Shown here one piece after another: positions 2 to 23,946 of a stretch of DNA of 23,946 nucleotides. A program made the position numbers and the translations under genes. Origin of the DNA: a virus. The notes beneath the pieces were generated by a model that searched no databases, had not been told where the DNA came from, and was given only the letters and a program-made list of their open reading frames with translations. The stretch spans positions 1-23,946 of the IMG/VR virus record IMGVR_UViG_3300006929_000120; one strand, 5' to 3'. Position 1 is the stretch's first letter; each line of letters begins with the position of its first letter.

Positions 2-1312
2 GGTGGTGATGAAGGTGAGTGTGCCAAAGCCACGGTGGGTAATGCCGAAGGCGAAGGTTCTGATAAGGAAGACAGCACGTCAGGTTCTTCATCGGAACTA
101 AATCAGAAAGCCGAGGTCTACGATGACACGGTTAAGGAAATCCCCGCTGGCGCTGAAGACGGCGGCGGTGGATATGGTAAGGGGGCTACCTCAACAGCCG
201 AAGCCAAAGAGGTAGAGAAGGTCGTCGATGTAGAACAGTACGATCCTAATATGTCGGTCGGCTTGAAACATATGATTAAGGAAGACGAGCGAGAAGCAAC
301 CAGCAAGACGGTGACATCGGGTTGGAAACCTTGGTCAACAAAATACGATGCTGTCATCGAGAGCACCCACCCTTGGCTTGACGGATCACCAAACGTGTAC
401 AAGAAGCTCGTCAAAGAGATGAGCGGTAAAGTCAACGCCATGCAGCGCAAGCTCGAAGCTGGGCTATCCGCAAAACTCGACGTGGACTGGGAGACCGAAA
501 AGTTACAGGGCCGTCTTGATACGCGTCGTCTGGTCAACGCCTTTAACTGTAAGCCAGACGTCTACAAGACGCGAGCACCTGCGCCAGATATGGATACGGC
601 GGTGACGCTGCTCGTCGATATGTCTGGCTCGATGAGCGGGCACAGACGTGGACGCAAGCGCAAAAAGACGAAGATAGAACTTGCGCGTGAAGTCTGCATC
701 GCGCTCCTCGAAACGTGCGAACGCCTCGGCACCGCGACCGAGGTGGTTGGCTTCACCCAATATGGCCTTACAAGCCAGATTATGCAGCCTGATAGAAGTT
801 ATCGGACTATGTCTGAGGAGGAGTACATAGATATGCGTGGCATCGGTAAGAGTTATGATCGGACGGGGCCACTCTGCCATTTCATTTTCAAAGGATACAA
901 TCAGCGCCTCTCTGACACGCGACACACTTTCAGTCAGATGACTGTTCAGCGGATGTGGCAAAACGCGGATGGTGACAGCATAGACTTTGCCAGACGAAGA
1001 CTTGAGCGTCGTTCGGAGAGACGGAAAATTATGATGGTATTGTCGGATGGCTGGCCAGCGGCAGATGGGGATGGTGATGACAGACAACATCTTCGTGATG
1101 CGGTCGAACGTTGTTCAAAAGCTGACATTGATACCATCGGGATCGGCATAAACTCTGATGCGGTCGGCCATTTCTATCCACGCTACGCCGTCTGCACAAA
1201 AATCGAAGACCTGCCCAACTCTGTTTGCTCGGAGATCGGCAAGCTACTAATCGACGACCGTTACAAAGCAAGCAATGCAGACCTGATGAAGGCCAGCTCT
1301 CGTGCCGCGTAA
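2..1312 (+). CDS. CobT-like VWA-domain protein, 5' end outside the window
   Basis: The frame is open from the first bases of the window; a GTG at 35 is only an internal candidate, so the gene almost certainly starts upstream. The visible N-terminal part is an acidic, Gly/Ser-rich low-complexity linker (to about nt 230), as found before the C-terminal domain of CobT. A von Willebrand A domain follows with a MIDAS motif D-M-S-G-S-M-S at nt 617-637 and a later IMMVLSDGWP strand near nt 1030-1060, matching the layout of the cobaltochelatase CobT C-terminus. In the cell CobT pairs with the AAA+ protein CobS to drive cobalt insertion in aerobic B12 synthesis. Phage copies of CobS/CobT are known, and whether they chelate metal or act as a MoxR/VWA-type chaperone pair is not settled. 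No CobS or CobN is visible here; CobS would be expected upstream. The family call is fairly sure, the function in the phage is not. Confidence 0.8.
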   Translation, partial: GGDEGECAKATVGNAEGEGSDKEDSTSGSSSELNQKAEVYDDTVKEIPAGAEDGGGGYGKGATSTAEAKEVEKVVDVEQYDPNMSVGLKHMIKEDEREATSKTVTSGWKPWSTKYDAVIESTHPWLDGSPNVYKKLVKEMSGKVNAMQRKLEAGLSAKLDVDWETEKLQGRLDTRRLVNAFNCKPDVYKTRAPAPDMDTAVTLLVDMSGSMSGHRRGRKRKKTKIELAREVCIALLETCERLGTATEVVGFTQYGLTSQIMQPDRSYRTMSEEEYIDMRGIGKSYDRTGPLCHFIFKGYNQRLSDTRHTFSQMTVQRMWQNADGDSIDFARRRLERRSERRKIMMVLSDGWPAADGDGDDRQHLRDAVERCSKADIDTIGIGINSDAVGHFYPRYAVCTKIEDLPNSVCSEIGKLLIDDRYKASNADLMKASSRAA

Positions 1313-1346
1313 CATCTTAAAGAAATCACCCCCAGCCGTTCACACG

Positions 1347-1386: not shown

Positions 1387-1495
1387 GGGCGGCGGTTGGA
1401 CAGGAAGTACGGTCCAGGGGGATCAAATCGACAGACCACAAGCGCGTAAGGCGGGTTTGTCACTCAGTGAAATGCGTATGGAACAGGAGATAATC

Positions 1496-2481: not shown

Positions 2482-2907
2482 ATGAATGATGAATTAACCA
2501 CAACCTTATCAAGGCTTGAGAATAAGATCGATTTAATTCTCTCGGAAATGTTAAAAAAGCCGGGCAATGGATCGGCCATCGACACCAAGACGGACGAGAC
2601 TGCGTTTCGCAGCTTGACAACCAAGCAACATGCGGTTTGCCAGTTGCTTCTCCACAATCTTAGCAACAAAGAGATGGCTGACGTTCTGGGCCTCCAAGAG
2701 CCGAGCGTGAAAGTTCATGTTAGAGGGGCCAATAAAAAGTTTGGGGTCAACCGACGGTCTCAAACAAAAATCGCCTACGCCAACATTTTTGCGGAGACGG
2801 ATGACGATAAATATCTTTTATATAGCGGCGGTCTTCCAAAAGATTGGTATCCCGAACACCTAGATGACACAGGCGCCGTGGCGCTTCTGAAAGTGAGGGG
2901 TAACTGA
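2482..2907 (+). CDS. orphan LuxR/GerE-type HTH regulator, 141 aa
   Basis: Residues about 43-95 form a LuxR-type helix-turn-helix: LTTKQHAVCQLLLHNLSNKEMADVLGL followed by the recognition-helix region EPSVKVHVRGANKKFGVNRR is the GerE pattern, including the NKEMA and SVKVHV elements. Unlike classical LuxR or response regulators there is no autoinducer-binding or receiver domain. The first 40 residues are a charged helix (possible dimerisation) and the last 40 are unrecognised. The ATG follows GGGTAGGA. The stop TGA overlaps the integrase start (TGATG at 2905-2909), so the two are co-expressed. By context it may control integration, excision or the lysogeny decision; that is inference. Confidence 0.8.
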   Translation: MNDELTTTLSRLENKIDLILSEMLKKPGNGSAIDTKTDETAFRSLTTKQHAVCQLLLHNLSNKEMADVLGLQEPSVKVHVRGANKKFGVNRRSQTKIAYANIFAETDDDKYLLYSGGLPKDWYPEHLDDTGAVALLKVRGN

Positions 2908-4283
2908 TGGCGAAACACACGTTAAGGCCGTACAAGCGCGAGGGTTACTGGCACATTAGAGGGTTAGTAAAACTCGACGATGGTGGAAGAGTTAAAGTAA
3001 GGAAAGGCACAGGTTTACCTGAGACAGTCTCCGAGGGTGAAGTGTGGAAGATCGTCGAAAACATCTTTCAAGAGACCGTCACCAACGGTCCAGCCACGAA
3101 AGAAACTATCGGCGACATTATGAAAACATTTGTTTCGGATTTTCGACCGAACAAAAACGAATTAAATGTTATCAATCAGATGATAAATAAACACGGAAAC
3201 AAGAAGTCCGACGAGTTTACGGCCAGAGATTTTTCCGACTGGGCCTACGAGGATGTGCGCGGTGCGCGACATGTCCTTCGTGGCGCGTACATAGCCTCGA
3301 AGATAAAACTAATTCAAAAAATATTAAGGCGAGCCAAAAAGCTCGGGTCAAAAATCAACGAAGCGCTACTGGATATCGATAGGCCAAGGGTCAGTAATAT
3401 AAAGACCAGCTACTTCGAGGCCGAAGAACGAGATCGGTTCATAGACGAGATGCCAGGTAGTTACAGACGTTTCACCCAAATGTTGTTTGGTGCTGGCGGA
3501 AGGTTTTCGGAAACTCGACGACTGCGACGGCGACATCTCACAAAAGAAAATAACACAGTCCTATGTACGTTTAAGAACCGAAAAAATTCTGCCGGTGAAT
3601 GGAAAGAACGGACTGTTCCTCTGAGCCAGATCGCAGTCGATGCCCTACCTGTGGGCTGGGAAGCGATGGACCGAGATGATTATCTCTATACATACAACGG
3701 TGAGCCGGTGGACTACGGATGTTACAACTACCGTTGGAACCAAACGAAGCACTTGTTGAAAATCGACAACCAAGAACTCACGCCTCACACGGCCAGACAC
3801 ACGTTCGCAACTTTGCTACTTGTCGACAAAGGATTGGATATTGCGTACATCGCTTTTCTCATCGGAGACACGGTAGCGATGTGCGAAAAACGATACCTCC
3901 ATATCAGGCCAGAGAAGGCCGCTCGTGCAATGTCGCGTGTCCAAGTGCTTGGGGTCCATAAGCCCATTCTTGCCCCTCCTACCCCTACACATGACATCTT
4001 TGACACTCCTCAGACGTCAAAGGTACATACAACACTATGCATCTCCGGCAAAAAAGATACGGATGTCAAAGGTGTAGGGTATGTCTTTGGCACAAAAAAG
4101 GCACAAAATAAAATTGTGTCTCAAGGAGGGGTCGAATTACTCAATGATTTCAATAGGTTGGTGCGCCCGGCAGGATTTGAACCTGCGACCAAGATGTCAA
4201 AAGAGTATTCCAGACGTCAAAAGAGACCCACTCAGACGAACACTACACAACTTTCCGACACTCAAACTCGGAAAAAGGGCTAG
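2907..4283 (+). CDS. int: tyrosine recombinase (phage integrase) reading through attP
   Basis: Site-specific recombinase of the phage integrase family, expected to recombine attP with a host tRNA gene. Catalytic positions visible: R199 (GGRFSETRRLRRRHL, box I), H294-x-x-R297 (TPHTARHTF, box II) and Tyr330 (CEKRYLHI). The usual His of the LGH motif is replaced: the sequence reads FLIGDTVAM, with Asp321 there. An SAM-like core-binding domain precedes the catalytic domain. The conserved fold should end near residue 350, yet the frame runs 458 codons. The last ~110 residues read through the attP region, including the translated tRNA remnant (VRPAGFEPAT, a familiar artefact of frames crossing tRNA 3' ends). 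Integration at this core would therefore change the integrase C-terminus. The gene is coupled to the LuxR-type gene by a TGATG overlap. Confidence 0.93.
   Translation: MAKHTLRPYKREGYWHIRGLVKLDDGGRVKVRKGTGLPETVSEGEVWKIVENIFQETVTNGPATKETIGDIMKTFVSDFRPNKNELNVINQMINKHGNKKSDEFTARDFSDWAYEDVRGARHVLRGAYIASKIKLIQKILRRAKKLGSKINEALLDIDRPRVSNIKTSYFEAEERDRFIDEMPGSYRRFTQMLFGAGGRFSETRRLRRRHLTKENNTVLCTFKNRKNSAGEWKERTVPLSQIAVDALPVGWEAMDRDDYLYTYNGEPVDYGCYNYRWNQTKHLLKIDNQELTPHTARHTFATLLLVDKGLDIAYIAFLIGDTVAMCEKRYLHIRPEKAARAMSRVQVLGVHKPILAPPTPTHDIFDTPQTSKVHTTLCISGKKDTDVKGVGYVFGTKKAQNKIVSQGGVELLNDFNRLVRPAGFEPATKMSKEYSRRQKRPTQTNTTQLSDTQTRKKG
4013..4223 (+). repeat. four direct GAYGTCAAARG repeats flanking the att core (possible arm-type sites)
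   Basis: Copies at 4013-4023 (GACGTCAAAGG), 4062-4072 (GATGTCAAAGG), 4193-4203 (GATGTCAAAAG) and 4213-4223 (GACGTCAAAAG), all in the same orientation, two on each side of the tRNA-like core at 4159-4190. This arrangement matches arm-type integrase-binding sites of lambda-like attP regions. Function is inferred from placement; a weaker copy (CACGTCAAAAA) may lie near 4362. Confidence 0.55.
4159..4190 (-). other. attP: attP core: tRNA 3'-end remnant (attachment site)
   Basis: Read on the minus strand this is the 3' end of a tRNA: variable-loop end GGTC, T-stem GCAGG/CCTGC with loop TTCAAAT, acceptor strand CGGGCGC, discriminator A and CCA (TGG at 4159-4161 on plus). There is no D-arm, anticodon arm or 5' acceptor strand further along, so this is not a working tRNA gene. 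Such remnants restore the host tRNA after integration. The acceptor sequence fits alphaproteobacterial tRNA-Arg, which is a guess at identity. Phage-like genes on both sides suggest an unintegrated attP rather than attL or attR. Confidence 0.85.
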
Positions 4284-6777: not shown

Positions 6778-7146
6778 TTAGACCTCGATGATTTCGAACC
6801 CTTCCCGCACCATTTCCGTTTCTTCCGCAACGAAGAACTTTTTACCTTCTTGTACACGACCTTGCTCCTCACTTGTTTCAGGAAGTTTATCGTCTGCGCC
6901 TTGGTTTTTCGTCCCCTTGGTGGCAATGTATTCGTAGCAGTCCTCGTTTATTTTTCTTTGGACCAGCGAGATGCCACTTGGTGGTGTGTGAGCGGCGTGA
7001 AGAGCCGCTTCACAAATCCGACCAGCTTCCGTGCGCCACATGCGACCACGTTGTTTTGCCAGATACCCAATGAAATAAATGACTGAGCGTTCCTGCTTGT
7101 TCTCAAGGAACTCTTGCCAGTCTGTGATTGTGTGAACATGTCTCAT
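6778..7146 (-). CDS. hypothetical protein, 122 aa
   Basis: Start ATG 7146 overlaps the oxygenase stop (ATGA), with GGGAG ten bases upstream; a longer frame to 7200 is less likely. The first half is helical (WQEFLENKQERSVIYFIGYLAKQRG, EAGRICEAALHAAH), then comes SLVQRKINEDCYEYIATK and an acidic tail rich in E and K. The pattern recalls small unassigned phage proteins, but I cannot name a family. Confidence 0.6.
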   Translation of the reverse strand: MRHVHTITDWQEFLENKQERSVIYFIGYLAKQRGRMWRTEAGRICEAALHAAHTPPSGISLVQRKINEDCYEYIATKGTKNQGADDKLPETSEEQGRVQEGKKFFVAEETEMVREGFEIIEV

Positions 7147-7667
7147 GAAAAAGGAACTCCCGTCGCCCAGAACACGAGGGAACGTCGTCTGCCCCTCCAA
7201 ACTGGACGTACTCGATGTGGCAAATAGGATGGGAAGACCGTGATGTGGCCGATCTCACGGCTCACATTTCCTCTCCACGTCTCCAGACGACCGCCCCAAT
7301 ATTTTGATGGAGGCGTTAAATTAACCGAGGCACTGAGTTTTCGATTTTTAATTGCACCGGAGCCAAGGTCTATGTGTTTTGAATAATGTCCGAAAATTCC
7401 ATACTCAGTGAATTGCGCCGTATTCAGAGCATCGAAAGAGATATTCCAGTTCTCTTTATTTATACGGTCGATGGCGGAAAAAACCTTCCTGTATACATCA
7501 GTTATTTCCATTGGGTTTAGCCAGACGACGTCGCAACGTCGGATAAGGTTATTCGATTTGGATTGGAAGAGTGCTCCCCTGGCAGGCCGAGGTTTCTTTT
7601 TTGCAGCGCGGATCACGTCTGCAACGTCTGTGAGAGTAAGGCAAGGTGATGAAACCGAGCTATCCAT
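7143..7667 (-). CDS. 2-oxoglutarate/Fe(II)-dependent oxygenase, 174 aa
   Basis: The C-terminal two thirds carry the jelly-roll signature of prolyl-hydroxylase-like 2OG-Fe(II) oxygenases: iron ligands H98-x-D100 (HYSKHIDL), the GGRL strand turn (YWGGRLETW, W124-L128), the distal His151 in FPSYLPHRVRPV and the 2-oxoglutarate-binding Arg at 161/162 (RRRSLVFW). The family hydroxylates protein side chains or other small or nucleic substrates; the substrate here is unknown. The order 2OG-oxygenase next to likely virion or accessory genes is common in marine phages (family knowledge). Start ATG 7667 follows the upstream stop by 2 nt. Length is near the usual single-domain size, and no key residue is missing. 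Confidence 0.85.
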   Translation of the reverse strand: MDSSVSSPCLTLTDVADVIRAAKKKPRPARGALFQSKSNNLIRRCDVVWLNPMEITDVYRKVFSAIDRINKENWNISFDALNTAQFTEYGIFGHYSKHIDLGSGAIKNRKLSASVNLTPPSKYWGGRLETWRGNVSREIGHITVFPSYLPHRVRPVWRGRRRSLVFWATGVPFS

Positions 7668-8888: not shown

Positions 8889-9165
8889 CCTTTATCCTGT
8901 CTTTGAGCAGGTCCAACCCTGCAAGAATGAGGTGTATGTCGTCTGCAACAGACGGCGTGAATAAGGAGCCGGTAGACTTTTTGTCGGCAGCTATTGTCAC
9001 CGCTGCAAATCCACTAATTTCTTTTTTAGACACAGCACTAGCGAGATGTGCCAGGAAAGCCAGCATCTCGGTGATCTCTTCGTCGTCCACTAGATCAACC
9101 TCGGCAATGTCTTGGCCGTACTTTTTTTTCGCATTATCGACGACGAGCTTAATCTTTTTTCCCAT
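8869..9165 (-). CDS. hypothetical protein, 98 aa
   Basis: ATG 9165 has a strong GGAGGGAT directly upstream and lies 17 nt inside the end of the nuclease gene. The product is helical and charged (EEITEMLAFLAHLASAVSKKE, DDIHLILAGLDLLKDRIKDE) without a known motif. An inverted pair of the window's frequent hexamer (CGTCTG-CAA-CAGACG, 8940-8954) lies inside it. Confidence 0.6.
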   Translation of the reverse strand: MGKKIKLVVDNAKKKYGQDIAEVDLVDDEEITEMLAFLAHLASAVSKKEISGFAAVTIAADKKSTGSLFTPSVADDIHLILAGLDLLKDRIKDECLSE

Positions 9166-9526
9166 ATCCCTCCGCTTTCAGATAGGCATTGTACAGACGG
9201 AGCAGATCATCCAGACGAAGAAGGCACAGACTTTCCCCGGTTTTCATTCTGCTGCGGCGGTTGATAACGACCGTGATCTCTTCTTCTAAATTTGAACGTG
9301 TTCGGTTTGCTTCGGCTTGGGCCAGTGCTGCATGGAAGTTCAGTTTTTCCACGCGCTTTGCTTCAACAAACATCTGTGGTGTGCCAGTCAAGTCGGCGGT
9401 AGGCGTTAAGCCTACCCGCCCCCCACCGCTGAGTGGAGTGCGATAACATGAAAGCCCACAGTTTGAGTTAAAGTAATCGGCAAGCTCTCTTTCATAACCG
9501 TCACCCTTTCTCTTCTGTCTACTCAT
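9149..9526 (-). CDS. PD-(D/E)XK nuclease, Holliday-junction-resolvase-like, 125 aa
   Basis: Begins MSRQKRKGDGYERELADYFN, the N-terminal helix with the conserved Glu of Hjc-like and related phage nucleases. It is followed by SCYRTPLSGGG, then the catalytic Asp in ADLTGTP (D45) and E55-x-K57 in MFVEAKRVEKLNF. The pattern D...ExK after RTPLSGGG is typical of small archaeal-type Holliday junction resolvase-like phage proteins. ATG 9526 overlaps the stop of the HTH/zinc gene; the frame open to 9649 is not used. Likely role: resolving branched DNA in replication or recombination, together with the cassette at 12278-14390. Confidence 0.75.
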   Translation of the reverse strand: MSRQKRKGDGYERELADYFNSNCGLSCYRTPLSGGGRVGLTPTADLTGTPQMFVEAKRVEKLNFHAALAQAEANRTRSNLEEEITVVINRRSRMKTGESLCLLRLDDLLRLYNAYLKAEGYGKKD

Positions 9527-9818
9527 CGATATCCCAGCCTTGTTTGTGTCGACAAGATTTGCAGAAATACCAGCCCTTTGGCCTTCGGGTGGTCGCGCCG
9601 CACTTAATGCATGCTCGTTCCCATTGAGGAACATCATTATCACGAGCAAGTTGATATTTCGCGCCGTCGAACTCGCGCAGTCCTTCCCTGACCAAGATGC
9701 GTTTTAAAGTGTCGACGTTTACGTGTAGTTTTCTGGCCATCTCGGCGTAGGTCGTTCTGGCGTGGTGAGTGTGAAGCCAGTGCATGTTATCCCGTGTGAC
9801 AAATACTCGCTTGGGCAT
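9519..9818 (-). CDS. HTH and zinc-ribbon DNA-binding protein, 99 aa
   Basis: First gene of the long minus-strand operon. Residues about 20-48 form a helix-turn-helix (TYAEMARKLHVNVDTLKRILVREGL), and residues 70-89 a four-cysteine zinc ribbon (C70-x2-C73 ... C86-x2-C89; CIKCGATTRR, WYFCKSCR). It may regulate its own operon or bind DNA structurally. Its upstream region contains the palindrome shared with the 12.2-kb control region, so it may be under that regulator. Confidence 0.7.
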   Translation of the reverse strand: MPKRVFVTRDNMHWLHTHHARTTYAEMARKLHVNVDTLKRILVREGLREFDGAKYQLARDNDVPQWERACIKCGATTRRPKGWYFCKSCRHKQGWDIDE

Positions 9819-9987: not shown

Positions 9988-10158
9988 ATGAAAAAAAACG
10001 AAGCAGCCCAAAAAAATCGGGAGAAATATCCCGAAGTTGCCCGCGTTATTGATCTGGTTCGTGAATATTTTCCGGGCGCCAAGGTTGTTTATTTTGGGCC
10101 AAAGAGACCCTCAGACGGACAACCAAGAACGGATAGTTCTAACAGGTCGACCAAGTAG
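9988..10158 (+). CDS. small hypothetical protein, 56 aa
   Basis: ATG 9988 opens a 57-codon frame (MKKNEAAQKNREKYPEVARV..., then FPGAKVVYFGPKRPSD). The amphipathic helix followed by a VVYFGPKRP strand looks like real protein. No clear Shine-Dalgarno sequence precedes it (TAGACC), which may relate to the structured leader just upstream. Its last 48 nt are antisense to the 3' end of the prim-pol/helicase gene. Function unknown. Confidence 0.5.
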   Translation: MKKNEAAQKNREKYPEVARVIDLVREYFPGAKVVYFGPKRPSDGQPRTDSSNRSTK

Positions 10159-11997
10159 ATCAGCGATCTCAATTTCTGTTAAGCCGTCAAGAGACAAGTC
10201 CTTGGCTCTTTGTTTCGTGGACATGCTGCTGACGACCTGCCGCATATCAGACGACAAGCATTCGGCCAAACCAAACCATTGGACTCGGTCATGCAGGTCT
10301 GTCCATTCCCTCACCTTCCCGTATCGAATTTCCATACACATGTATAGGCGCCAGTCTTCTGGCAGCTTTGCAGATAGCGCTGGGAAAACTGGGCTTGGAT
10401 AATTACCGTCAAAAAGAGCAGCATTATTATTAGCAGTATCCTCATCGTCATACACCTGCGTTACTCTTATCTGTGTTTCCAGTGTCGTTAGCTGGTTCGT
10501 TGAACCAGCTTCTCTGCCCAGTCCGTTGTCACCCGGCTTGTTCGAATGGTGAACCAAGACGACAGCGATCCCGGCGTTTCTGATTTTGACAGCCAGGGAG
10601 TTGATCTTTGCCCACTCGTCTGCGGAATTTTCCAGCAGCCCCGGCCAGGCGGTTCGGATCGTGTCGATCACGACGACGTCTGGCCTAGAATATTCTATCC
10701 ACCCTTGAAGTTCTTGGAGACCGTCCGGCTTGTGAAAATTCATCTCGATGTCGTCGTCCACAAACGGCGTCCATATCTGGAGCCTGTCCTCTGTGTCGCC
10801 ATGTATCTGCTTCATTTCGGCCAGACGTCTGGCAATGGTCGAGCGGCCCATTTCAAAGTCAAGATAGAGAACTCTGGCCGGACCCATCACCTCGAAGGGG
10901 CCGATGTGTCTCTTCCCAGACGCAAGGGCTGCCATGCAGTGTGCAACAAACATGGACTTTCCGTGACCTGAATAGCCGTGGACCTGCGTTACACTGCCCG
11001 CTTGCAACCAAGGTTCGATCAGGAATTTTGTTGACGACGCAGCCGCTTCGAGATCGGCAATATCTTTCATTTCAATCAGGCGCCGTTCGCGCCCGTTCCT
11101 TTTAATATCCGGTCTGTCTGGATGATTGAAACAATATTCACCCTTCTCATTAAACCGTTCGGGGTGGTTCCTTTTTTCCGATTGCTCCATCGAACTAACA
11201 GTTGCTTCGAACTCTCTTTCGTCCAGAGGGTCCACAAAAAATTCGTTCGTGAACGAATGGCATCTCACCCTTAGTTCCGCGCCAAAGTATCCCTCCATGA
11301 TGCACTCAGACGCATAACGCATGACGCGCTCATTCCGTCCGTTGCCCAAACCGCTCGGAATTTTTCCATCTTTAAAATGTTCAGACGCAAATTTTTTGGT
11401 GCGTTCCCACTCGCTAACAAATTGACGAGCTGGTGTTATGTCTGAGAGATCGAGCGTAGAAAAATCAAAGGTTTCTTTTTTTAGACCGGGCCGCCAGTCT
11501 TTCCAGACGGGGGTATCTTCATCCATGTCCAGACCAAGCGGAATTTCCCAAGCATAGTTCGTTGACGGCGGGACCAAGACGTAAGACCCGTCACCTCGGA
11601 AATCCAGACCGTTAATGCGTGGCCAGTCCTGACCTCGACTGTTGACGCCTGCCCTCGGACCTCGCTCGATGCCGTCTTTTGGATGCTTGAAATAAAGGTG
11701 ATACCCGCGCTTCGTCTTTACTCGAATTGGACTTTGCATTCCAGAATTGATAGCCGCGTCGAGCGCGTCTGGATTATCGCAGTCAACGACCACATAGCCA
11801 GAGAGCTTTCCGGTTATCATAGCTATTTCATCGTCTGGATAATCAACCCACCAATCCATTACCTCTTGTTCAGTCGGGAGGCGTGATTGGTAAGCCCTCC
11901 ACTTTACACGTGGTTTTTTGGTGCTGCTTCTAATCGGTATGACCGGAAAACCTTTATCAAGATATTCCAGTGCTTGATCTAACCTCATGCTTGTCAT
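10111..11997 (-). CDS. bifunctional primase-polymerase / RepA-like helicase, 628 aa
   Basis: The N-terminal domain is a prim-pol of the AEP superfamily: FPVIPIRSSTKKPRVKW, catalytic D72-C-D74 (VVVDCDNPDA), KRGYHLYF and GLDFRGDGSYVLVPPS. The C-terminal domain is a RecA-like RepA/AAA_25 helicase: Walker A GYSGHGKS (341-348), LDFEMG, Walker B VVVIDT (D445) and VLVHHSNK (H483/H484). A final helix-turn-helix (TEIEIADLLGRPVRTIRSW) closes the protein. It should prime and unwind DNA at the phage origin. Start: ATG 11997 with AGG ten bases upstream, or TTG 12003; both overlap the Cro-like gene by about 40 nt. No DNA polymerase is seen, so the host enzyme or a gene outside the window is needed. Confidence 0.9.
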   Translation of the reverse strand: MTSMRLDQALEYLDKGFPVIPIRSSTKKPRVKWRAYQSRLPTEQEVMDWWVDYPDDEIAMITGKLSGYVVVDCDNPDALDAAINSGMQSPIRVKTKRGYHLYFKHPKDGIERGPRAGVNSRGQDWPRINGLDFRGDGSYVLVPPSTNYAWEIPLGLDMDEDTPVWKDWRPGLKKETFDFSTLDLSDITPARQFVSEWERTKKFASEHFKDGKIPSGLGNGRNERVMRYASECIMEGYFGAELRVRCHSFTNEFFVDPLDEREFEATVSSMEQSEKRNHPERFNEKGEYCFNHPDRPDIKRNGRERRLIEMKDIADLEAAASSTKFLIEPWLQAGSVTQVHGYSGHGKSMFVAHCMAALASGKRHIGPFEVMGPARVLYLDFEMGRSTIARRLAEMKQIHGDTEDRLQIWTPFVDDDIEMNFHKPDGLQELQGWIEYSRPDVVVIDTIRTAWPGLLENSADEWAKINSLAVKIRNAGIAVVLVHHSNKPGDNGLGREAGSTNQLTTLETQIRVTQVYDDEDTANNNAALFDGNYPSPVFPALSAKLPEDWRLYMCMEIRYGKVREWTDLHDRVQWFGLAECLSSDMRQVVSSMSTKQRAKDLSLDGLTEIEIADLLGRPVRTIRSWLSV

Positions 11998-13058: not shown

Positions 13059-13547
13059 ATGAATGATTGGAATGGTTTTGAAGACCTCGACTTAACAGAC
13101 GTTGGAACATTAACCAGTGCTCGACTAGAGCAGGGTAATTTTGACGTCGAAGTTACAGACGCGGAAATAACAACTTTTTCCGGTACCGATGGAAGTGTTG
13201 GAAACAAGCGGGTCGAGGTTCGGTTTAAAGATTTGGAAGGTAGTGGTGACATTTTGCACTACTTCAACCTTCACTTCCCTACTGCTCCTCAAGCCGAAGA
13301 AATCGGAAAAGCAACTTTTAAGCGCTTTCTGATGGCGTCTGAGCACCCTACCCCCGACGCGCCGAAAGACATAAAAAGTCTGAACGGCTTGAAATGCGGG
13401 ATCATTGTCGGTCAGGGGAAAGCCTATGTGAAAGACGGCGTACAGAAACAGCGCTCAGAGATTAAAGTTTTCCGCGCAGCAGGTAGTGGTCCCGCCAAAC
13501 CAGCGTCTCCTGCTGTGCAAAAACTCGATGACGAAATCCCGTTTTAG
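13059..13547 (+). CDS. ssb: single-stranded DNA-binding protein, 162 aa
   Basis: The decisive mark is the C-terminal tip LDDEIPF, the acidic-hydrophobic tail by which SSBs recruit partner proteins. It follows a flexible Pro/Ala linker (SGPAKPASPAVQ). The body (FDVEVTDAEITTFSGTDG, KRVEVRFKDLEGSGDILHYFNLHFP) looks like a beta-rich OB-type domain of the DUF669-like phage SSB group rather than the bacterial Ssb sequence. It starts 1 nt after the Sak4-like stop. Sak4 proteins are known to work with such SSBs. Confidence 0.8.
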   Translation: MNDWNGFEDLDLTDVGTLTSARLEQGNFDVEVTDAEITTFSGTDGSVGNKRVEVRFKDLEGSGDILHYFNLHFPTAPQAEEIGKATFKRFLMASEHPTPDAPKDIKSLNGLKCGIIVGQGKAYVKDGVQKQRSEIKVFRAAGSGPAKPASPAVQKLDDEIPF

Positions 13548-13556: not shown

Positions 13557-14390
13557 ATGAACATCGAGAAGGAGCAGGAGCGGAGTGATCCGGTAGCCGA
13601 TCAAATTGATCTCGGCTATTCATCACGCCCTCGTGAAGACACAGCCCGACAATACATCGGTGCCTCGAATGTGGGGAATGACTGCGAGGCCAATCTCGCC
13701 TTCTCACTTCGCGGCTACCCGGACACCCCGCCCTCTCCGATCCTTCAAAGAATTTTTAACATGGGCCATATTATCGAAGACGTCGTTGTTAAAGATTTAA
13801 AAGAACGAGCTGACATCCGCGTCTGGGAAAAGGATGGGCTGACAGGACGTCAACACGCATACGATTTGTATGGCGGCCATGTGTCGTGTCACCTCGATGG
13901 CCATATTGAGATGGACGACGACGAGGTGGGTATCCTCGAAGTCAAATCGATGAACCAAAGTCTGTTCAATAGATGCAAAAAACATGGCGTTATAAAATCT
14001 CATCCAAAATATTACGATCAGATGCAATTAATGATGGGCATGAGCGGCATGCGGAAGTCTCTGTTCGTGAGTTATTGCAAGAACACTTCACGCTATCTAT
14101 CTGAAATTGTTGAATATGATGACTTTCATTACCAAGGTTTATTGGGAAAAATTGAAATCGTAATGATGAACGAGGCAACCAAGGTAGCGTCTGATCCGAC
14201 TGACTGGCGCTGCAAAGGATGTTTCAAGCGCGAGGTTTGTTGGGAAAACAAACCTGTTCCGCGAGAGTGTAGCTCTTGCAGCTTTGCGATTGCGGACGAA
14301 AGCGGGGTTTGGTGGTGCCTCAAACATGAAGATGAAGCGCGTAAAGTTTGTGCAGATTACGAACTGTACATGCCAAAGGAAAAAACATGA
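13557..14390 (+). CDS. Cas4/RecB-like PD-(D/E)XK exonuclease, 277 aa
   Basis: Catalytic motif: D114 in CHLDGHIEM and E128-V-K130 in ILEVKSMN, with the following YYDQMQLMM helix (Y152/Q155) and the H71 region (MGHIIEDVV) as in RecB/Cas4-type nucleases. C43 together with C219, C222 and C228 (WRCKGCFKREVC) fits the 4Fe-4S cluster ligands of Cas4-like enzymes. A second cluster, C238, C241, C254 and C265, looks like an added zinc finger. Expected role: end resection for the Sak4-SSB annealing system. ATG 13557 has only a weak TGGG upstream; it is 9 nt after the SSB stop. No CRISPR array or cas gene is present, so this is a phage recombination nuclease, not an adaptation gene. Confidence 0.85.
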   Translation: MNIEKEQERSDPVADQIDLGYSSRPREDTARQYIGASNVGNDCEANLAFSLRGYPDTPPSPILQRIFNMGHIIEDVVVKDLKERADIRVWEKDGLTGRQHAYDLYGGHVSCHLDGHIEMDDDEVGILEVKSMNQSLFNRCKKHGVIKSHPKYYDQMQLMMGMSGMRKSLFVSYCKNTSRYLSEIVEYDDFHYQGLLGKIEIVMMNEATKVASDPTDWRCKGCFKREVCWENKPVPRECSSCSFAIADESGVWWCLKHEDEARKVCADYELYMPKEKT

Positions 14391-15733: not shown

Positions 15734-16132
15734 CTAACGGCCACCCCACCTCGCCCGACGACCTCTGTCGTCGACATGAATAAATGATTTGTAAGTTCCA
15801 ATGCCACCAAAGCCGACGACTTCAGCCGCCTTTGCGATGGCGTCCAGACTGACCCGGCTTGATTTCACGTCAAATGCTGTTGATTTCCGGTGCTCAGTAC
15901 ACCGATGCTCACTGTTCACTACGCCGCCCACACGTGCATTGTGAACGGGGCATCGTGCCGCTGACAGGATTGTCAGTGGTGCGTCGAGCACAAGACGTAG
16001 GTTCTGGAGCTTGTCTAGCGCTGCATCGGCAACGTTTGCTATTGGTTGGTTGTTTTGACTGAACGCGCATGATCCGTCACACCCCTTGCAAGAAAGTTCT
16101 GACCACTTGAAATTTGGTCTGGCAAAAATCAT
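15734..16132 (-). CDS. M15-family peptidase (endolysin), 132 aa
   Basis: Zinc-dependent D,D/L,D-type peptidase of the M15 (Peptidase_M15_3-like) group, expected to cut peptidoglycan peptides at lysis. Visible: FKWSELSC start, the S-x-H motif with H76 (VNSEHRC), D88 in STAFDV, and H119-V-D121 near the C-terminus (SFIHVDD); these are the likely zinc ligands and catalytic region. The N-terminal C-x2-C-x3-C cluster (SCKGCDGSC) is known in phage members. No signal peptide is present, so a holin would be needed for release, and two candidates follow in the same block. ATG overlaps the giant gene's stop (TGATG). Confidence 0.85.
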   Translation of the reverse strand: MIFARPNFKWSELSCKGCDGSCAFSQNNQPIANVADAALDKLQNLRLVLDAPLTILSAARCPVHNARVGGVVNSEHRCTEHRKSTAFDVKSSRVSLDAIAKAAEVVGFGGIGTYKSFIHVDDRGRRARWGGR

Positions 16133-19100
16133 CAGTATTGTCTTTTAAATAAATCAGGAAATAAGTTGTCTGATTTTGACTTTGGCTCAAAAGCACCATC
16201 GACTATCGCTTCTCGAACCGAAGATATTCCGCCGACAACAGGCACACGTCTGGCCGCTTCTCGAACAGCCATTCTCTCCTGGCCTCGTCCGTCTGTATCG
16301 CCGTCTGTTAGAGCATCAAAACCGCCTGCTGCAATATCAAACCCGCTCATTGCCAGTCCGAAACTGGGACCAAGAACTGTCCCCGCCAGCCTCATTTTTC
16401 CGTAAGCCCCATTGTCCCGTTGTTGAACGGCGGCATGCATGAGATCGCCTATCAGTCCAAGGCCGCCCATCAAAAGCATCCCTTCAGCGTACCAAGAAAG
16501 ATACTTATCGAAGTCACCGTGATACTTTTCGTCGTATCCAAGCAGCTTCATCAGGCTGTCATCGCGGTTCCTTGGTTTGTGTTCACGGTTTTCTTCACCA
16601 CCTCTTCCCTGCACGATATCTTTTGCTGTCAATGCTCCGTACCCGGCGGCTGGTCCAAGTGTAAGAAAATAAGCAGCGCGTGTTGGGTCTCCCTTGCCTC
16701 GAACGGCTTCGGGATTTTTTAGCGTCCTGATGCCAGTGTCATGCAAATACAGACGTATGTCGTTATAGAGAACTTCCTTGCCCATTCTTCCGATCATTAA
16801 CGGAAACGTCTTGAGCTGCATGATGAGGCTTCCCCACGGCCCTTGTCCCCAATGGGGAACGTCGTCTGCGTTCGGCGTAAAGATTGCTTCGTTTGAAAAT
16901 TTGATAAGAGCTTCCTGAACCAGAGGCTCTTTCAAAGCGTCATCAAAATCGAGGCTCTCTTTCCGAGGTCCATTTGGCGCAAAATCTTCTAGCCCGTACA
17001 TCTTGAGAAACCGCCACGCTTGTTTGAACTGTCGCGGTTGTTCCTCCAGCGGAACGTTGGGAACAAAGTGCCTCTGGGCTTTTGCCTGCTCCGCGATAAA
17101 AGCCTGATGACCTACAGACGCACAAATTTTTCGCTGCGTATCCGTCCACGGCGTCAGCAACGTGCCATTGAAGAAGGCTTGACTGATCTTACTGTCGTTG
17201 CCGCCATACCCGTGGATCATCCGCTCATGCATAATGTTCTCGATAGCAACGCCAGTATTGCGGATTGCCTTTCGATATTCCGGGTCTGTCATCTTAGACC
17301 AACCCTTAATTGCACTGCCTATGCGTCCAGCCCGAATGATCGGAAGAACAATGTCACCCAGTGATGTCAAAGTTGTGAAGGAAAGGAGCGAAACATTATT
17401 AACTGTTCTCAGTCCCCGACTAAATTTTATTTCTTCAGGGGTTCCAATCGGGCGCTTGTTATAAACGTCCATCATCCGGTGGACATGATCGTACTCGTGA
17501 CTTGCCTGACGATTAAACTTGTGAGAACCGTCATCCATTTTGCCGTCGTCCAGTGCGTTTAATATGCCTTCCATCCGACGTTCATAGACCTGTGGTATTC
17601 CACCCCCCTTGCGGTTTTCGGGAGAAACCATTCTCAAAAGTTGTTCCGCTGCCGGACGACCATGCTCCGCATGGGTCTTCATTAGCAATGTTGCAAATGG
17701 GTCTGCATCACCAGGCGCGTGTTCGTATGGCATGTGAGCGGTATTAACGAGGGTATATTCCGCGTAACCATCCTCACCACCTTTAGCTTTCTTTGCTCGT
17801 CTGGATACTTTTGGTGTGGTGAGGAGGTATATTATTCCTTCCTTACCCTTCTCCATAACCCGCATGTAGTCATCGATGCCGTGATTATTAACGCCGAATT
17901 TTTCGGTCATCATTATTTTTCGTGTCGATGCCTCGAAATACTTTGTGAGGATGAAGTCCATATCATCCTGAAGAAAAGGCTCTAGCCCTTTCAGGGCTTC
18001 CGGGTGTTTGTCGAGTTCAATCATTCGGGCAAAGTCGATATTCTCAGACCCCGCACTGACGTTGCGAGCTTCGTCTGGGAAGGTGATGCCGTCGTTTTCA
18101 CCGTCTGCAAGAGTGCGGTAAATTTTATTTACCATTTCTTTGAAGTCATTGGTTTCTTGCATCTTGCTGATGTCATCTTCCGACATACCTGTTGCGCGAC
18201 GTTCCGCTACAAAGTAGTCAGCTAGGGCTAGTCGAAAGTCAGCTCCATTCTTGGTAATGTGTTTTGCATCCCAGACTTGAGGGAAGTAATCATCGCCACG
18301 GTTCCCCATGTAAACGCCCGCGTTTACAAGGTCTTGCCGTTCTTGCCGAAATGCCGTGAAAATGCTGTTGGCTACCTTCTTCTCTTCTTTGGATAGGAGG
18401 TTAAAGGCTTCGCTGTCTGTCCCTCGCCGCATTGCTCTGGCAATTCTTGACCACGATTTCGGTTGTTCGGAAACCCGGCTACTGATCGGAGCCATGACTT
18501 TGTTAGTCCAGCTTTTTAGAGCACTGGGTCCGTCTGGAAGCCCAGTAAGAAGGTCTTTAAGAGCAAAATATTTCTGACTGAAACGACGATGATGAGCGGG
18601 GTGGTAATCTTTAAACCATTGCCCGATGGTTTTAAAACCAACTTGTATCATTCTCGATGAGTTTGTCTGAAGTTGAACGTTGTTAGCTTTCTGAAGCGCC
18701 TCGATCTCTGGGACATCTAGTTGTTTGCCAGCTTCAATTTTTCCCATGCCAGACGCAACGCCGGGTGGCACACCTTCTTTTAAATGAAGGACAATATCCT
18801 CGGTTTCATTGTCATTCATCTTAGCTAAAGCGTGACGTCCGATTTCTATATTTACCGGAGCCTGAAAATCACTGTGGTACAACCGATCATCTGCTTCATT
18901 GAATACATCTGCATCGACGTGCTTTACCTTGTTATTATCGAAAACAACCATCGAAGGAGAAAAGGTTGCGACATTATCTTGACCACGGGTGAAGTGCATG
19001 ACCCGAAGACTGTCGTAACCCATATCCTCAAGCGCATTGGTTATATGGTCGACGGCGACTTCTCGGCTAAGACCTCGATCTTCAATCAGCGTTTTTAAAA

Positions 19101-22100
19101 GATGACCATATAAAGCACGGCCAGTCCGTTCTTCGGGGATCAGATCATTGTACTCTTTGAAAAAGTTAAATAAGGAGCCATCATCAACGGCCTGCGATTT
19201 TTGCAATCGATCCGCCAATCCGACTACAAAACCGTCGTCTGGTTCGTAACGTGTATTATCAAACCTAGCTGTATGCTTGGCTCTCACCACAACCGGCATG
19301 ACCAAGGGCTGCATATCCAGCTTGTGATCTTTGACTAAGTTTTCCGCGATTACCATTAGCGTAGACTTTTGCCCCGCCAACTCTATTTCGAGGTCACTTA
19401 TCTTGCTTTCGTTTAGTGTTTTATTAATGTCAGCTTGATCGCCAAGAAAACTATCATTCATGCCAGCCCGAAGGTCTGCAATCTCAGCCTCCAAGTTCCA
19501 AATGTCTCGTTGGACACCGACATACTGCTGGGCAGAGCTAAGAGCCTCTAGTTCTTTTTCTTTAGAAAGACCCTTACTTTCAATTTGACTTTGCCAGCTT
19601 TCATAAGTGGGCATTTTTGAATAATAGTCGCTCTCGTTCGGATCGAGTGCTAAGTATGTTCCTCGTCCGAAAACACCGCCACGCCCAGGTGTTCCCCGCA
19701 GAACGACGTCTGGATAAATATTTCTATCAAAGTGCTGCCCCCACGGCGTACCGTGATAAAAAATAATTGGCTCGCCGTTTTGGCTTGTTAGATCGTTGCC
19801 AGTATCTACAAATCGCTTTCTGGATTGTCTTCTGTTTTCCGGCGAATACCTTAGAACGGCGTTTGAATATTTTGCCGCGTCGGTTCGAGGTACACCTACA
19901 CTGTTTCTGTAGAGATCGAGGATTGGGTTGGTGGGTTTTTCAAAAACATCCCCATAAAACATCATCCGTCTGTATGTCTGCTTCACATCATTCCGGCCAA
20001 TTAGTCCGTTTGTGACATACACCACATATTCAACAAGCCGGTCGATTGCACGATCCAAGCTGCCGCGCAATTTAATGCCTTCTATCTCTCCTTGTTCAGA
20101 CATCTTGAACGCGTCATTTTTGCTTACCCGTTTTGCAAGGTACTGTGAGAACCCTTCAACGAACCATTCTTCCGCAGCGATCTCTTTAATCTGAGCATCG
20201 TTTTCACCGGGATAGTTCTTGCGGGCTCTTGCAAAAGCCCTCTCCTTCAACAGACCGTCTGCAACATCAAAGGCATCGACGATGGATTTTCTTTCAGCTT
20301 CGGGGAAGCCAGCAGAGCGAAGCACTGCATGGGAGACTTCGTGCATCACCTCGATTGGTGTGACCTCTCCTTTGTTAAGGCCAACTGCCATACGTCTTAG
20401 GTCGCTTCGCAACTTGCTGTAGTTCTCTCCTCGGAAATCGGAAAACACCGCATTGGGAGACCCCTCCGGGCGCGTGTTGGCCAGACGTGCCACCTGATCG
20501 ACGGTTAGCACATTAACTTCGTCCATTTTGTCAGTCGCATTACCGGCAAGGTTTAACATGCGATAAAGCATAGTTCTTGCTGTCGTCTGAATTTCGGGAT
20601 CGCGGTGTGTGATTGGAGCAATAAAGGATTTTATCCTTGCCGGGGCTTGTGCCGGAATACCTTCATCGTAACTAACGCCAACGTTTGCCTCGATCTCGTT
20701 ATCGATAGCGCGAGCGACGTCTGTTTCGCTAAGTTTCAGTACGACAGACGATATTTTTTGGTCTTTATTTTTCTTGTTGTGAATGCGCCGACTGACCTCA
20801 TAAGCAACTTGTTCTTCAAGTTCAAAGTCGCCGGTTTTCCACGCCTCCATATATAAAGTCTTGAGTTCCTCGACACGTGCAGACATAACCCGCTTTGGCA
20901 CTGGAATTGTCTGCTCCAAAACCGGGTAAGTTTTCATCTTCTCGTAAAGAACAGCGCCGATTTGGTCGCCGCGTGGCGTCCCTTCGTGCTTTACAAACTC
21001 GTCTGCCAACTGTTCCTGTGACATGCCTCGTACTGAAGCTGCCGTAGTTTCATCGACATCAGGTGTATTAAGCTGTCTTGTTTGGCGTTTTCGTCTAGGC
21101 GTTGTCGCGTTTTCGGCGGCCCGTTTGGCGCCAGACTTTCGTTGCCTCTGTTGGCTACTCAACTTTTTGGGCTTGCCGATGCCTCTTTGTCGGACGCGAA
21201 CCTGATTTCTAGCGATGCTGTCAGGGATTTCCTGTAAAGGAGTTCCTTCGGCCAAGTGGTAAGAGGCATTAATATCCTCACGAAGAATTTTAAAAGCATG
21301 AGACAGGTTGGTGTAGCCAGCCTCGATTGATTTTTCCTTAACGTTTCCTGTCGGAGGCTTCCATGCACCATCGTATAGCTCTGCTAATAGCGGATAAACG
21401 CGATCCCGATCTGTTGTAGAAACGACAGTGTCCCAGTCGTTCATCGCACCTGTCGTATACATATTGTTTAAATCTGCAAATTCTTCGCGAACCTCTCTTG
21501 AAATAGCGTCATCGCCAAGAACATCGCCCATCCAGGCGTTTGTGTTGCCCTCATATTGTTCGGGTACAATCCCCTCATTGACAAATCTTTGGGCATCCCT
21601 GCTATCTATTGGGCTATGGGATAGGATTTGATTTAGATCGAGCAACCGATGGCGAAGGATTTTCCAATGGCCCGGTTTTATTCCCTTATAAAAATTCCGA
21701 CCGTGCTTGAATGCCGGATCATCCTTGTTGTACGCAAACCGTCCCGCTAGCCAGTCGCGCATCATGGAAGCAGCGTCAAAAGCCCAGTCGGCACTATCTG
21801 CCCGAAATGCTTTTTGTATTTGACCTTCCAAGAGTTCCAATTGGTCGAAATGAAACTTATGCATTTTACCGGCATCTGTTTGCGGATCGCCGAACCCATG
21901 CTTGAATTTCATTCGTTCGTTTTCGGGAAGTATTTTTGCGAATAATGGCTCTAATTCTGGATCAATCGTGGACTTCGCAAAGTATCGGTCAAAAATTGCT
22001 TGTACATATCCTCGGACTTTTTCCCAGTAGCCGGGGGTTTTCCATACACCGTTAGAAGTTCCCTGCATCGTCCATGCAGAAAACTGATCGGCGAAATATT

Positions 22101-23946
22101 CTTGGGGGCTAACAAGGCCGTACCCTAAAGACCCTCTTGAGGTGTTAAGTGGTATTGTTCGATTTTGAATTGCGTCAATATCAAGGCCATCAGTGTAATA
22201 CTGGCGCTGCATCGCATCCCAAAACTCAAGACGATCTTGTGGTGTCAGAATGTTTTCGTAAGCCCAATGCCCAACTTCGTGGTACATATTTGCCAAATGT
22301 GGTCGCCCACCAACGGGTCTATCGGGTCCGCCTATACTGACTTCAGATTTAGTATTTAGGCTTGTATTCCTAGCGTAGTGCCAATCGTTTCCTTCTTTTA
22401 GGATGGGGCCGTATGACTTGTTGCCGCCTAACCGACTAATAAAGGAACGCGCTTCGGCTGCTGTTTCTGGATCACTTCTTTCAAAAATCCGACCGATTTT
22501 TTCCACGGCATCGAAGCGGTCAGCAACGGGCAACAAATCGCCTTGAGGCGCAGCCTGCGCCATTCTGTTGTAAATAAGTGTGATGGCTTCAATATGCTCA
22601 CCCATATCGTCATAGGCTGGCCATTGCGCGCTTTCTAGTTTAGAGGCTAAAGATTTAAAGTATCTATAAGAAGGGGGAGTAACGTCTGCGGCATCAAAAG
22701 GAACTTTTAAGTTAATACCTGCACGTCTTGCGACGTTATTGAGTAATGTTGCCTCTTGCTCGTTTATGTCGGCAACCTTAATTTTGTCTGCTTGATCGGT
22801 CGTAAGATCGATAGGCTCACCATAGCCGGAAACATTTCCGTATGGCCCAATTGGTGCAGCGTCAGGATCGGCCCCTTCCGGCATTGCGTCCGCTTCTTCA
22901 AACGCATTTTGAATTGCTTTTTCTCTTTGAGGCGTTTCACGGGGAACATAACGAACCTCCCAGTTTTTAATGTCTCCTTTGGGTCCGCCTTGTTGCCCGA
23001 TAATTTTTTTGACCGTGTGTCCTTTATCAGCCTGACTTTTGCCCATCATGCGGTAAGTCGTATCCCCGGTTTCAGGATCAATAAATTTTGCAGCGGCAAT
23101 CTTTTCACCAGACGCGCCTGATGGTGTTACGTCTGGTTCGGCGGGTGCCGCCCTTTGGGGCGCCTTTAACTTTTCAATTTCCTCCAGCATTTTGACTGGA
23201 TCGTTTTGATGTTTCTCGATGATCGAGCGAACTTCGTCTGTCGTTGGCGATCTACTTGGTTCTGGAGTTGGCTCTTTTTTGTCCACACGATGCCCATAGC
23301 CACGGGCTGCCAGCGCTGCTTCCTCTGAAGCAAAAGCCCGGTTTTGCATACTGTCCCAAAATGCGTCCTGTCCGCGTTTTGCAATCGTTACAGGTCCGCC
23401 ACCCTTGTTAATAAGGCGCTCACCTTCGTCTGCCGAATACCGAATAATCGTCTGAGATTGTTCGAGTGTTTTGATGTCCTCATCAAAGCGGCGTTGGGCT
23501 TCAGCATTAAGCTCGGCTTTTCCCATCCTGACTTTGTTTGCTTTGTTTTCCGCACGTATAGTTTTCTTAATTCTTGCGATCTCACCACCGGCATCCTCCT
23601 GATACCTGCGAAGAATAATTCCCCTCTCTTTGGCAACGTTTACTGCTTCTGCTCGACCTATGTATCTTGCCGGATCGACACTCTCTGTTTTTCGATCAAC
23701 GCCTTCTCCTGTCACAGAGCGCGTCACGCGCCACTGCCCACTGGCATCTTTCTCGAATTGAGTAGGTTTACCCTTTACAAGAATGGTTTGAATGCGGCCT
23801 GTGGTCGGACTACGTCCGGCACCTTCTAAATTTTTGGCGTCTACGACCCTTTGCCCGGTTCCAAAACGTCGTTGCTGACGCTCTGCAAATGAACGTCCTT
23901 CCTCTGTCGTGACAGACCTTGCCAACGTCCCGGCATCTTCATAGGA
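16132..23946 (-). CDS. giant polyvalent-type virion protein (two metallopeptidase motifs, ART domain), 5' end outside the window
   Basis: The frame is open to the window edge; TTG 23925 is only internal, so more than 2,600 residues are encoded. Numbered from 23925: a first zincin motif HEVGH (549-553) in NMYHEVGHWAYENI with PQEYFADQFSAW after it; a basic linker near 945-975 (RRKRQTRQ); a second motif HEVSH (1195-1199) with a downstream EEWFVEGFSQYL; an ADP-ribosyltransferase-like domain starting FYHGTPWG (1391) with FGRGTYLAL, a coiled-coil insert and the ending NVATFSPSMVVFDNNKVKHV; then about 900 mostly helical residues. The C-terminus (PHWGQGPWGSLIMQLKTFPL, then a Gly-rich hydrophobic segment) resembles LPD38-type regions. 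This is the architecture of polyvalent proteins thought to enter the host with phage DNA. Only one cysteine (2268) is present. It heads the endolysin-holin block. Confidence 0.85.
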   Translation of the reverse strand, partial: SYEDAGTLARSVTTEEGRSFAERQQRRFGTGQRVVDAKNLEGAGRSPTTGRIQTILVKGKPTQFEKDASGQWRVTRSVTGEGVDRKTESVDPARYIGRAEAVNVAKERGIILRRYQEDAGGEIARIKKTIRAENKANKVRMGKAELNAEAQRRFDEDIKTLEQSQTIIRYSADEGERLINKGGGPVTIAKRGQDAFWDSMQNRAFASEEAALAARGYGHRVDKKEPTPEPSRSPTTDEVRSIIEKHQNDPVKMLEEIEKLKAPQRAAPAEPDVTPSGASGEKIAAAKFIDPETGDTTYRMMGKSQADKGHTVKKIIGQQGGPKGDIKNWEVRYVPRETPQREKAIQNAFEEADAMPEGADPDAAPIGPYGNVSGYGEPIDLTTDQADKIKVADINEQEATLLNNVARRAGINLKVPFDAADVTPPSYRYFKSLASKLESAQWPAYDDMGEHIEAITLIYNRMAQAAPQGDLLPVADRFDAVEKIGRIFERSDPETAAEARSFISRLGGNKSYGPILKEGNDWHYARNTSLNTKSEVSIGGPDRPVGGRPHLANMYHEVGHWAYENILTPQDRLEFWDAMQRQYYTDGLDIDAIQNRTIPLNTSRGSLGYGLVSPQEYFADQFSAWTMQGTSNGVWKTPGYWEKVRGYVQAIFDRYFAKSTIDPELEPLFAKILPENERMKFKHGFGDPQTDAGKMHKFHFDQLELLEGQIQKAFRADSADWAFDAASMMRDWLAGRFAYNKDDPAFKHGRNFYKGIKPGHWKILRHRLLDLNQILSHSPIDSRDAQRFVNEGIVPEQYEGNTNAWMGDVLGDDAISREVREEFADLNNMYTTGAMNDWDTVVSTTDRDRVYPLLAELYDGAWKPPTGNVKEKSIEAGYTNLSHAFKILREDINASYHLAEGTPLQEIPDSIARNQVRVRQRGIGKPKKLSSQQRQRKSGAKRAAENATTPRRKRQTRQLNTPDVDETTAASVRGMSQEQLADEFVKHEGTPRGDQIGAVLYEKMKTYPVLEQTIPVPKRVMSARVEELKTLYMEAWKTGDFELEEQVAYEVSRRIHNKKNKDQKISSVVLKLSETDVARAIDNEIEANVGVSYDEGIPAQAPARIKSFIAPITHRDPEIQTTARTMLYRMLNLAGNATDKMDEVNVLTVDQVARLANTRPEGSPNAVFSDFRGENYSKLRSDLRRMAVGLNKGEVTPIEVMHEVSHAVLRSAGFPEAERKSIVDAFDVADGLLKERAFARARKNYPGENDAQIKEIAAEEWFVEGFSQYLAKRVSKNDAFKMSEQGEIEGIKLRGSLDRAIDRLVEYVVYVTNGLIGRNDVKQTYRRMMFYGDVFEKPTNPILDLYRNSVGVPRTDAAKYSNAVLRYSPENRRQSRKRFVDTGNDLTSQNGEPIIFYHGTPWGQHFDRNIYPDVVLRGTPGRGGVFGRGTYLALDPNESDYYSKMPTYESWQSQIESKGLSKEKELEALSSAQQYVGVQRDIWNLEAEIADLRAGMNDSFLGDQADINKTLNESKISDLEIELAGQKSTLMVIAENLVKDHKLDMQPLVMPVVVRAKHTARFDNTRYEPDDGFVVGLADRLQKSQAVDDGSLFNFFKEYNDLIPEERTGRALYGHLLKTLIEDRGLSREVAVDHITNALEDMGYDSLRVMHFTRGQDNVATFSPSMVVFDNNKVKHVDADVFNEADDRLYHSDFQAPVNIEIGRHALAKMNDNETEDIVLHLKEGVPPGVASGMGKIEAGKQLDVPEIEALQKANNVQLQTNSSRMIQVGFKTIGQWFKDYHPAHHRRFSQKYFALKDLLTGLPDGPSALKSWTNKVMAPISSRVSEQPKSWSRIARAMRRGTDSEAFNLLSKEEKKVANSIFTAFRQERQDLVNAGVYMGNRGDDYFPQVWDAKHITKNGADFRLALADYFVAERRATGMSEDDISKMQETNDFKEMVNKIYRTLADGENDGITFPDEARNVSAGSENIDFARMIELDKHPEALKGLEPFLQDDMDFILTKYFEASTRKIMMTEKFGVNNHGIDDYMRVMEKGKEGIIYLLTTPKVSRRAKKAKGGEDGYAEYTLVNTAHMPYEHAPGDADPFATLLMKTHAEHGRPAAEQLLRMVSPENRKGGGIPQVYERRMEGILNALDDGKMDDGSHKFNRQASHEYDHVHRMMDVYNKRPIGTPEEIKFSRGLRTVNNVSLLSFTTLTSLGDIVLPIIRAGRIGSAIKGWSKMTDPEYRKAIRNTGVAIENIMHERMIHGYGGNDSKISQAFFNGTLLTPWTDTQRKICASVGHQAFIAEQAKAQRHFVPNVPLEEQPRQFKQAWRFLKMYGLEDFAPNGPRKESLDFDDALKEPLVQEALIKFSNEAIFTPNADDVPHWGQGPWGSLIMQLKTFPLMIGRMGKEVLYNDIRLYLHDTGIRTLKNPEAVRGKGDPTRAAYFLTLGPAAGYGALTAKDIVQGRGGEENREHKPRNRDDSLMKLLGYDEKYHGDFDKYLSWYAEGMLLMGGLGLIGDLMHAAVQQRDNGAYGKMRLAGTVLGPSFGLAMSGFDIAAGGFDALTDGDTDGRGQERMAVREAARRVPVVGGISSVREAIVDGAFEPKSKSDNLFPDLFKRQY

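Follow-up and report, generated by a model that had tools for sequence, protein, structure and literature searches.

The stretch of DNA analyzed here (the window) comprised 23,946 bases of a virus record. As judged by sequence comparison, it comes from a CRP-810-type phage, whose capsid, portal, and terminase genes lie outside this 24-kb fragment. The nearest annotated phage was Roseobacter phage CRP-810, to which the window PrimPol showed 59% identity across 99% of the query and the CobT-like protein matched at 37%. Clustering gave the same gene order as in CRP-810, and the core module (Prim-Pol, AAA ATPase, and PD-(D/E)XK nuclease) was present in the CRP-810 synteny. CRP-810 is the founder of a family of marine phages to which numerous uncultured phages belong (PMC11288001).

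The window encodes a CobT-like VWA protein (1–1312), a LuxR-type regulator (2482–2907), a tyrosine integrase (2907–4283), a 2OG-Fe(II) oxygenase (7143–7667), and an M15 peptidase. A RusA-like resolvase/PDDEXK_15 endonuclease (9149–9649; PHROG 244 and Pfam PF24608) and the PrimPol-helicase (10111–12003; Pfam Prim-Pol and AAA_25, with ORF904 as the PDB sequence match) are on the minus strand. On the plus strand are a Sak4-like annealing ATPase of the PrimPol module (12278–13057; PHROG 124 and Pfam AAA_24), a probable single-strand binding protein (SSB) of a DUF669-like family (13059–13547), and a YqaJ/Cas4-type exonuclease (13557–14390; PHROG 1990 and Pfam YqaJ). The SSB was assigned by its CRP-810 homologue, which carries an acidic DDxIPF tip at its end and gave matches to DUF669 and SSB PHROGs. 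Positions 16132–23946 are occupied by an open frame of 2604 codons or more that extends beyond the end of the window; it encodes part of a very large virion protein, and the portion sequenced here matched PHROGs for virion structural proteins, with an internal virion protein/endolysin segment.

Abundance and distribution of CAGACG in the window

By exact search, CAGACG/CGTCTG was found 82 times between positions 527 and 23454. Its plus-strand CAGACG copies, 35 rather than the 34 counted in an earlier sequence-only reading, start at 555, 643, 991, 3464, 4011, 4211, 4233, 4755, 6262, 6700, 7284, 7522, 7933, 8324, 8817, 8949, 9194, 9212, 10112, 10248, 10822, 10917, 11307, 11382, 11504, 13096, 13156, 14506, 15213, 16750, 17115, 18750, 20482, 20745, and 23109; the remaining 47 sites are CGTCTG on the plus strand, as that reading had counted. 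The hexamer pair was the commonest in the window (runner-up, 54) and ranked first by the second-order Markov score (82 against 18.3 expected, z = 14.9).

The sevenfold excess claimed in the sequence-only reading held against base or dinucleotide composition (11.9 expected) and came down to about fourfold against codon-preserving shuffles. CAGACG was also the top hexamer under such shuffling (21.0 ± 3.2 in 120 shuffles); 300 codon-preserving shuffles gave 20.4 ± 4.3 with a maximum of 37, and a shuffle that also kept the codon-junction dinucleotide gave 26.4 ± 4.4 with a maximum of 40. The maximal-order Markov expectation for the window (60) is circular because the hexamer itself lifts CAGAC and AGACG. 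One-mismatch neighbors were near expectation (AAGACG 25 against 18.2; CAGACA 18 against 15.8); neither the codon-aware shuffling nor the comparison with CAGACA, both of which the reading had suggested against its own observation, removed the excess. The word is about four times commoner than the genes of the phages can explain, and codon or amino-acid preference is insufficient, as had been argued.

The density was even from gene to gene (dispersion of 1.02), and enrichment was present in both gene orientations, every frame, and every region of the window. The remark that the copies fall in several frames and both orientations extended to six pooled genomes, where all six orientation-frame classes, sense and antisense, were enriched 2.0 to 5.9 times. 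CAGACG was enriched on both strands in most 8-kb segments with no replichore switch of the skew, which contradicts a polarity-type signal. The 22:7 bias toward CGTCTG at 15–24 kb was counted exactly but is not a signal of its own; it is a by-product of coding direction, because the codon-shuffle expectation at 16–24 kb was already 5.3 on the minus and 0.9 on the plus strand (observed, 20 and 6).

As had been noted, the core has almost no extension in either the window or the pooled set; it is graded, with AGAC most constant. The mild preference for a preceding C was seen in the window (31 of 82) and not in the pooled family set. Regular spacing was looked for and not found: the gaps were Poisson-like, and long gaps were without clear suppression. 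One overlapping motif pair forms the perfect palindrome CAGACGTCTG at 10822–10831. A palindromic dimer site as the rule was rejected, as CAGACGTCTG occurred just 12 times among 1297 pooled sites, against 1 in one shuffle.

Phage ownership, conservation, and dialects

CAGACG was the first-ranked hexamer of CRP-810 (160 against 60 by the Markov model and 67.6 by codon shuffling) and of about half the IMG/VR contigs retrieved by their PrimPol (43 sequences, counting the window and two halves of CRP-810 as entries). An enrichment of at least twofold was found in 86 of 96 contigs fetched through PrimPol, some of them closely related to each other, and the pooled family contigs held 2771 copies against 913 expected. 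On each strand, a density of one copy per 0.5–0.9 kb was reached in CRP-810, G005, G007, and the window, and most of the strongly enriched phages carried 2.7–5 copies per kb. Four loci (L035, L038, L079, and L153) showed no strong excess; the SSB gene seemed to be missing from L035, but this was an error of gene calling. No viral relatives turned up in scans with Sak4 or with the PrimPol of L085.

Across 247 genomes from the family to which the host of the Poseidonocella prophage belongs, CAGACG occurred at about 0.16–0.93 per kb, much as the reversed control did. FZCC0198, the strain of CRP-810, is also infected by an unrelated phage with similar G+C, CRP-811, which had 15 copies against 15.7 expected, and the word was near expectation in CRP-821, CRP-804, and CRP-113. 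Since neither these genomes nor phages such as CRP-811 were enriched, the signal, which the sequence-only reading had left between phage and host, belongs to the phage lineage.

Among aligned relatives at 75–85% nucleotide identity, 57% of the CAGACG sites were kept, compared with 33% of all hexamers and 37.5% of the one-mismatch neighbors; at 85–92% identity, the values were 77%, 52%, and 56%, respectively. The aligned pairs are not independent, and the contrast is large. As existing sites are better conserved than other hexamers, they are probably held by selection. Conversion from one donor neighbor was rejected, as no one-mismatch donor was depleted.

Other clades use other words. TAGACG was used by the clade L009–L011 (97 against 29 in the full record G003), AAGTCT and CAGACT were additional in L074, L076, and L080, CAAGAC and AGACGC were used by L078 and L083, AGACAG by L167 (64 against 20), and ACGACA by the outgroup L128–L130 (53 against 12.5 in L128 and 63 against 13.4 in L129). 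The Poseidonocella prophage L084 used CACGC[T/G]C (CACGCTC, 40 against 6; CACGCGC, 49 against 13), while its host avoids CACGCGC (72 against 115) and mildly favors CACGCTC (72 against 39). A distant Bermanella prophage, L085, had AGCCAGA 22 times against 3.8.

On balance, we favor the view that temperate phages own a genome-wide word whose reader would be a replication or recombination protein of the phage. Selection would keep the word at hundreds of sites, and a shift in the specificity of its reader would lead to its wholesale replacement; it would be a phage-owned counterpart of Chi and uptake sequences with the dialects CAGACG, TAGACG, AAGTCT, AGACAG, ACGACA, and CACGC[T/G]C. As far as our partial searches of the literature go, a phage-lineage-specific genome-wide word with dialects was not described before. 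Such a motif was not mentioned in the CRP-810 family paper on text search (PMC11288001).

Two further words were depleted, and one was enriched, in this set of phages. GANTC, the methylation site of the alphaproteobacterial CcrM, had a single site in the window (10282), compared with 60 in codon shuffles; it was absent from several related contigs and CRP-821 and occurred twice in CRP-811. GCAGC/GCTGC occurred once in 57.7 kb of CRP-810 (L001–L002) against 133 expected from composition, whereas CRP-811, a phage of that host strain too, showed no depletion of it. CRP-804 (L134), an autographivirus whose host is a related CHUG strain, had its own strongly over-represented hexamer, CCGCAG (78 against 22 in codon shuffles), with AGAC as its top 4-mer.

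Chi, uptake sequences, and the FtsK-orienting sequences (KOPS) are known maintained genome-wide words, and to our knowledge words maintained by selection in this way are known mostly from cells. CAGACG resembles Chi in being a short asymmetric word, over-represented genome-wide and with lineage dialects; unlike Chi, it is phage-owned, it shows no skew beyond coding, and no helicase-nuclease reader was found. The Neisseria DUS, which contains CGTCTG, and the Haemophilus USS are likewise selected repeated words with dialects. CAGACG, however, lies in alphaproteobacterial phage genomes and has no uptake role; it lacks a GCCGTCTGAA-type extension, which contradicts the uptake-like signal proposed earlier, and no strong extension to the neisserial ten- to twelve-base word around GTCTGAA was found in the window or the pooled set. 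KOPS are also dispersed short words, but they are strongly polar along the replichores, whereas CAGACG is enriched on both strands everywhere. HIP1 (GCGATCGC) of cyanobacteria is another iterated word, kept throughout the genome for reasons that are unsettled; it differs in being a palindromic octamer of cellular genomes associated with orphan methylases (PMC4390886), while CAGACG is an asymmetric hexamer of phages mostly without detected DNA methylases.

Candidate readers of the word

The observation made in the sequence-only reading is thus confirmed, and its interpretation is partly supported. A word on both strands, without regular spacing or replichore polarity and with a graded, barely extended core, fits an asymmetric site that a phage protein would recognize at many positions, and of the roles that had been listed, what remains is recognition by a protein with which the phage binds or replicates DNA. 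Our best explanation, offered tentatively, is that CAGACG/CGTCTG may be a single-strand template site where the phage PrimPol-helicase starts primers on both strands. The loci share a common module of PrimPol-helicase, Sak4, SSB, and YqaJ exonuclease, and the PrimPol-helicase, through which the loci were found, was present at every locus.

The PrimPol-helicase consists of a Prim-Pol domain, a helical bundle (about 196–280), a RepA-like hexameric helicase domain, and a C-terminal HTH; the archaeo-eukaryotic primase (AEP) residues D73, D75, H101, and D133 were invariant, and the bundle sits between the primase and helicase domains in the predicted structure. Foldseek and model matches were RepA and the pRN1 primase, and the PDB sequence search returned ORF904. 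The VIA-align rows mainly cover the helicase domain, so the evidence for the primase match comes from Foldseek, Pfam, and the PDB sequence search. The helical bundle of pRN1 ORF904 recognizes the priming site GTG, and the primases of NrS-1 and phage 1706 each have their own priming sites (PMC8718748 and PMC12205980). The sites of these AEP PrimPols (GTG for pRN1 ORF904; GTG and TTTGGTTA for NrS-1; CCAAC for 1706 GP55) and (G/T)GGTC of T7 are likewise short asymmetric words, read by primases on the template, and the window likewise encodes an AEP PrimPol with a helical bundle and a helicase. T7 mildly enriches the core of its primase site (GGTC, 1.25-fold over the codon expectation and second of all 4-mers by z). 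In contrast to these sites, CAGACG is longer and is enriched about 2–5 times; neither GTG in NrS-1 (1.02) nor CCAAC in phage 1706 (93 against 82) was enriched. Pelagiphage HTVC023P was rejected as a second case, as its GGTGG excess, found together with an AEP primase, was one-stranded and disappeared under codon shuffling.

Without selection, a hexamer would be expected about every 2–4 kb on each strand, which is rarer than one per Okazaki fragment, and therefore a primase preferring six bases would impose selection for extra sites. Such selection could have raised the word to about one per 0.5–0.9 kb in CRP-810, G005, G007, and the window. One site per 0.5–0.9 kb per strand is about the scale of Okazaki fragments. 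If the recognition domain drifts, the sites of the genome would follow, as in the clades with TAGACG, AGACAG, ACGACA, and CACGC[T/G]C.

Several results speak against a priming site. L035 and L038 were not enriched, although their PrimPols shared 83% and 89% identity with the PrimPols of enriched relatives, and the bundle of the L038 PrimPol is nearly identical to that of an enriched relative. The gaps were Poisson-like, although the density fits the Okazaki scale. Motif distance correlated with PrimPol distance (r = 0.57 overall), and other module genes tracked it about as well; no single gene stood out in a Mantel-type comparison of the module genes.

The strongest rival is another reader within the PrimPol module, which we consider rather unlikely: the word would regulate or position phage recombination or repair through the YqaJ exonuclease, Sak4, or the resolvase, as a phage-owned Chi analogue. 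The genes of these proteins adjoin PrimPol in most loci, the even two-strand density and the conservation fit, and some of them correlate with motif distance as well as or better than PrimPol. Chi, however, works via a helicase-nuclease, while the phage YqaJ is without a helicase part by Pfam, and the word has no strand polarity. It is unlikely that the word is bound by a nucleoid-like or silencing protein of the phage, such as a prophage-coating repressor. These phages are temperate (PMC11288001), a small YdaS-like HTH gene adjoins PrimPol, and the core of the motif is graded; the site is nevertheless short and asymmetric, without spacing or clustering, and the proteins are putative binders.

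An origin in the host, through host Chi (AddAB/RecBCD) or another factor favoring word-rich phages, is quite improbable. Clades differing in their word may infect different hosts, and a change of host could account for L035 and L038. The Chi-like host signal raised earlier is nevertheless disfavored, as neither the 247 genomes from the family of the Poseidonocella host nor CRP-811 of CRP-810's strain was enriched, and the Poseidonocella host avoids one word of its prophage and mildly favors the other. DNA modification or biased repair, by which a methylase or Vsr-like enzyme would accumulate the word as proposed for HIP1, is highly improbable: the CRP-810 family carries sporadic methylases (PMC11288001) and orphan methylases are linked to HIP1 (PMC4390886), but of the two methylase families searched in 13 family records, N6_N4_Mtase was found in 1 and DNA_methylase in none, and no one-mismatch donor was depleted. 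A codon-pair or compositional artefact is scarcely credible, since composition explains part of the raw excess (the expectation rises from 12 to 20–26 under codon-aware models), but the strictest shuffle never exceeded 40 against 82, all six orientation-frame classes were enriched, and CRP-811, with the same strain and similar G+C, was not.

If true, a phage-specific word would reveal, without biochemistry, the sequence that the phage replisome or recombinase reads; from the genome alone, priming sites or a phage Chi could be predicted, and the evolution of such specificity would be directly testable by clade comparison; the dialects span a globally distributed marine phage family.

A small protein without a Pfam or PHROG match and without a detected homologue in the window, bearing an apparent HTH and a zinc ribbon (CxxC...CxxC), is encoded directly downstream of PrimPol in L128 (12251–12535, plus strand), and it and its homologues follow PrimPol in about half of the loci.
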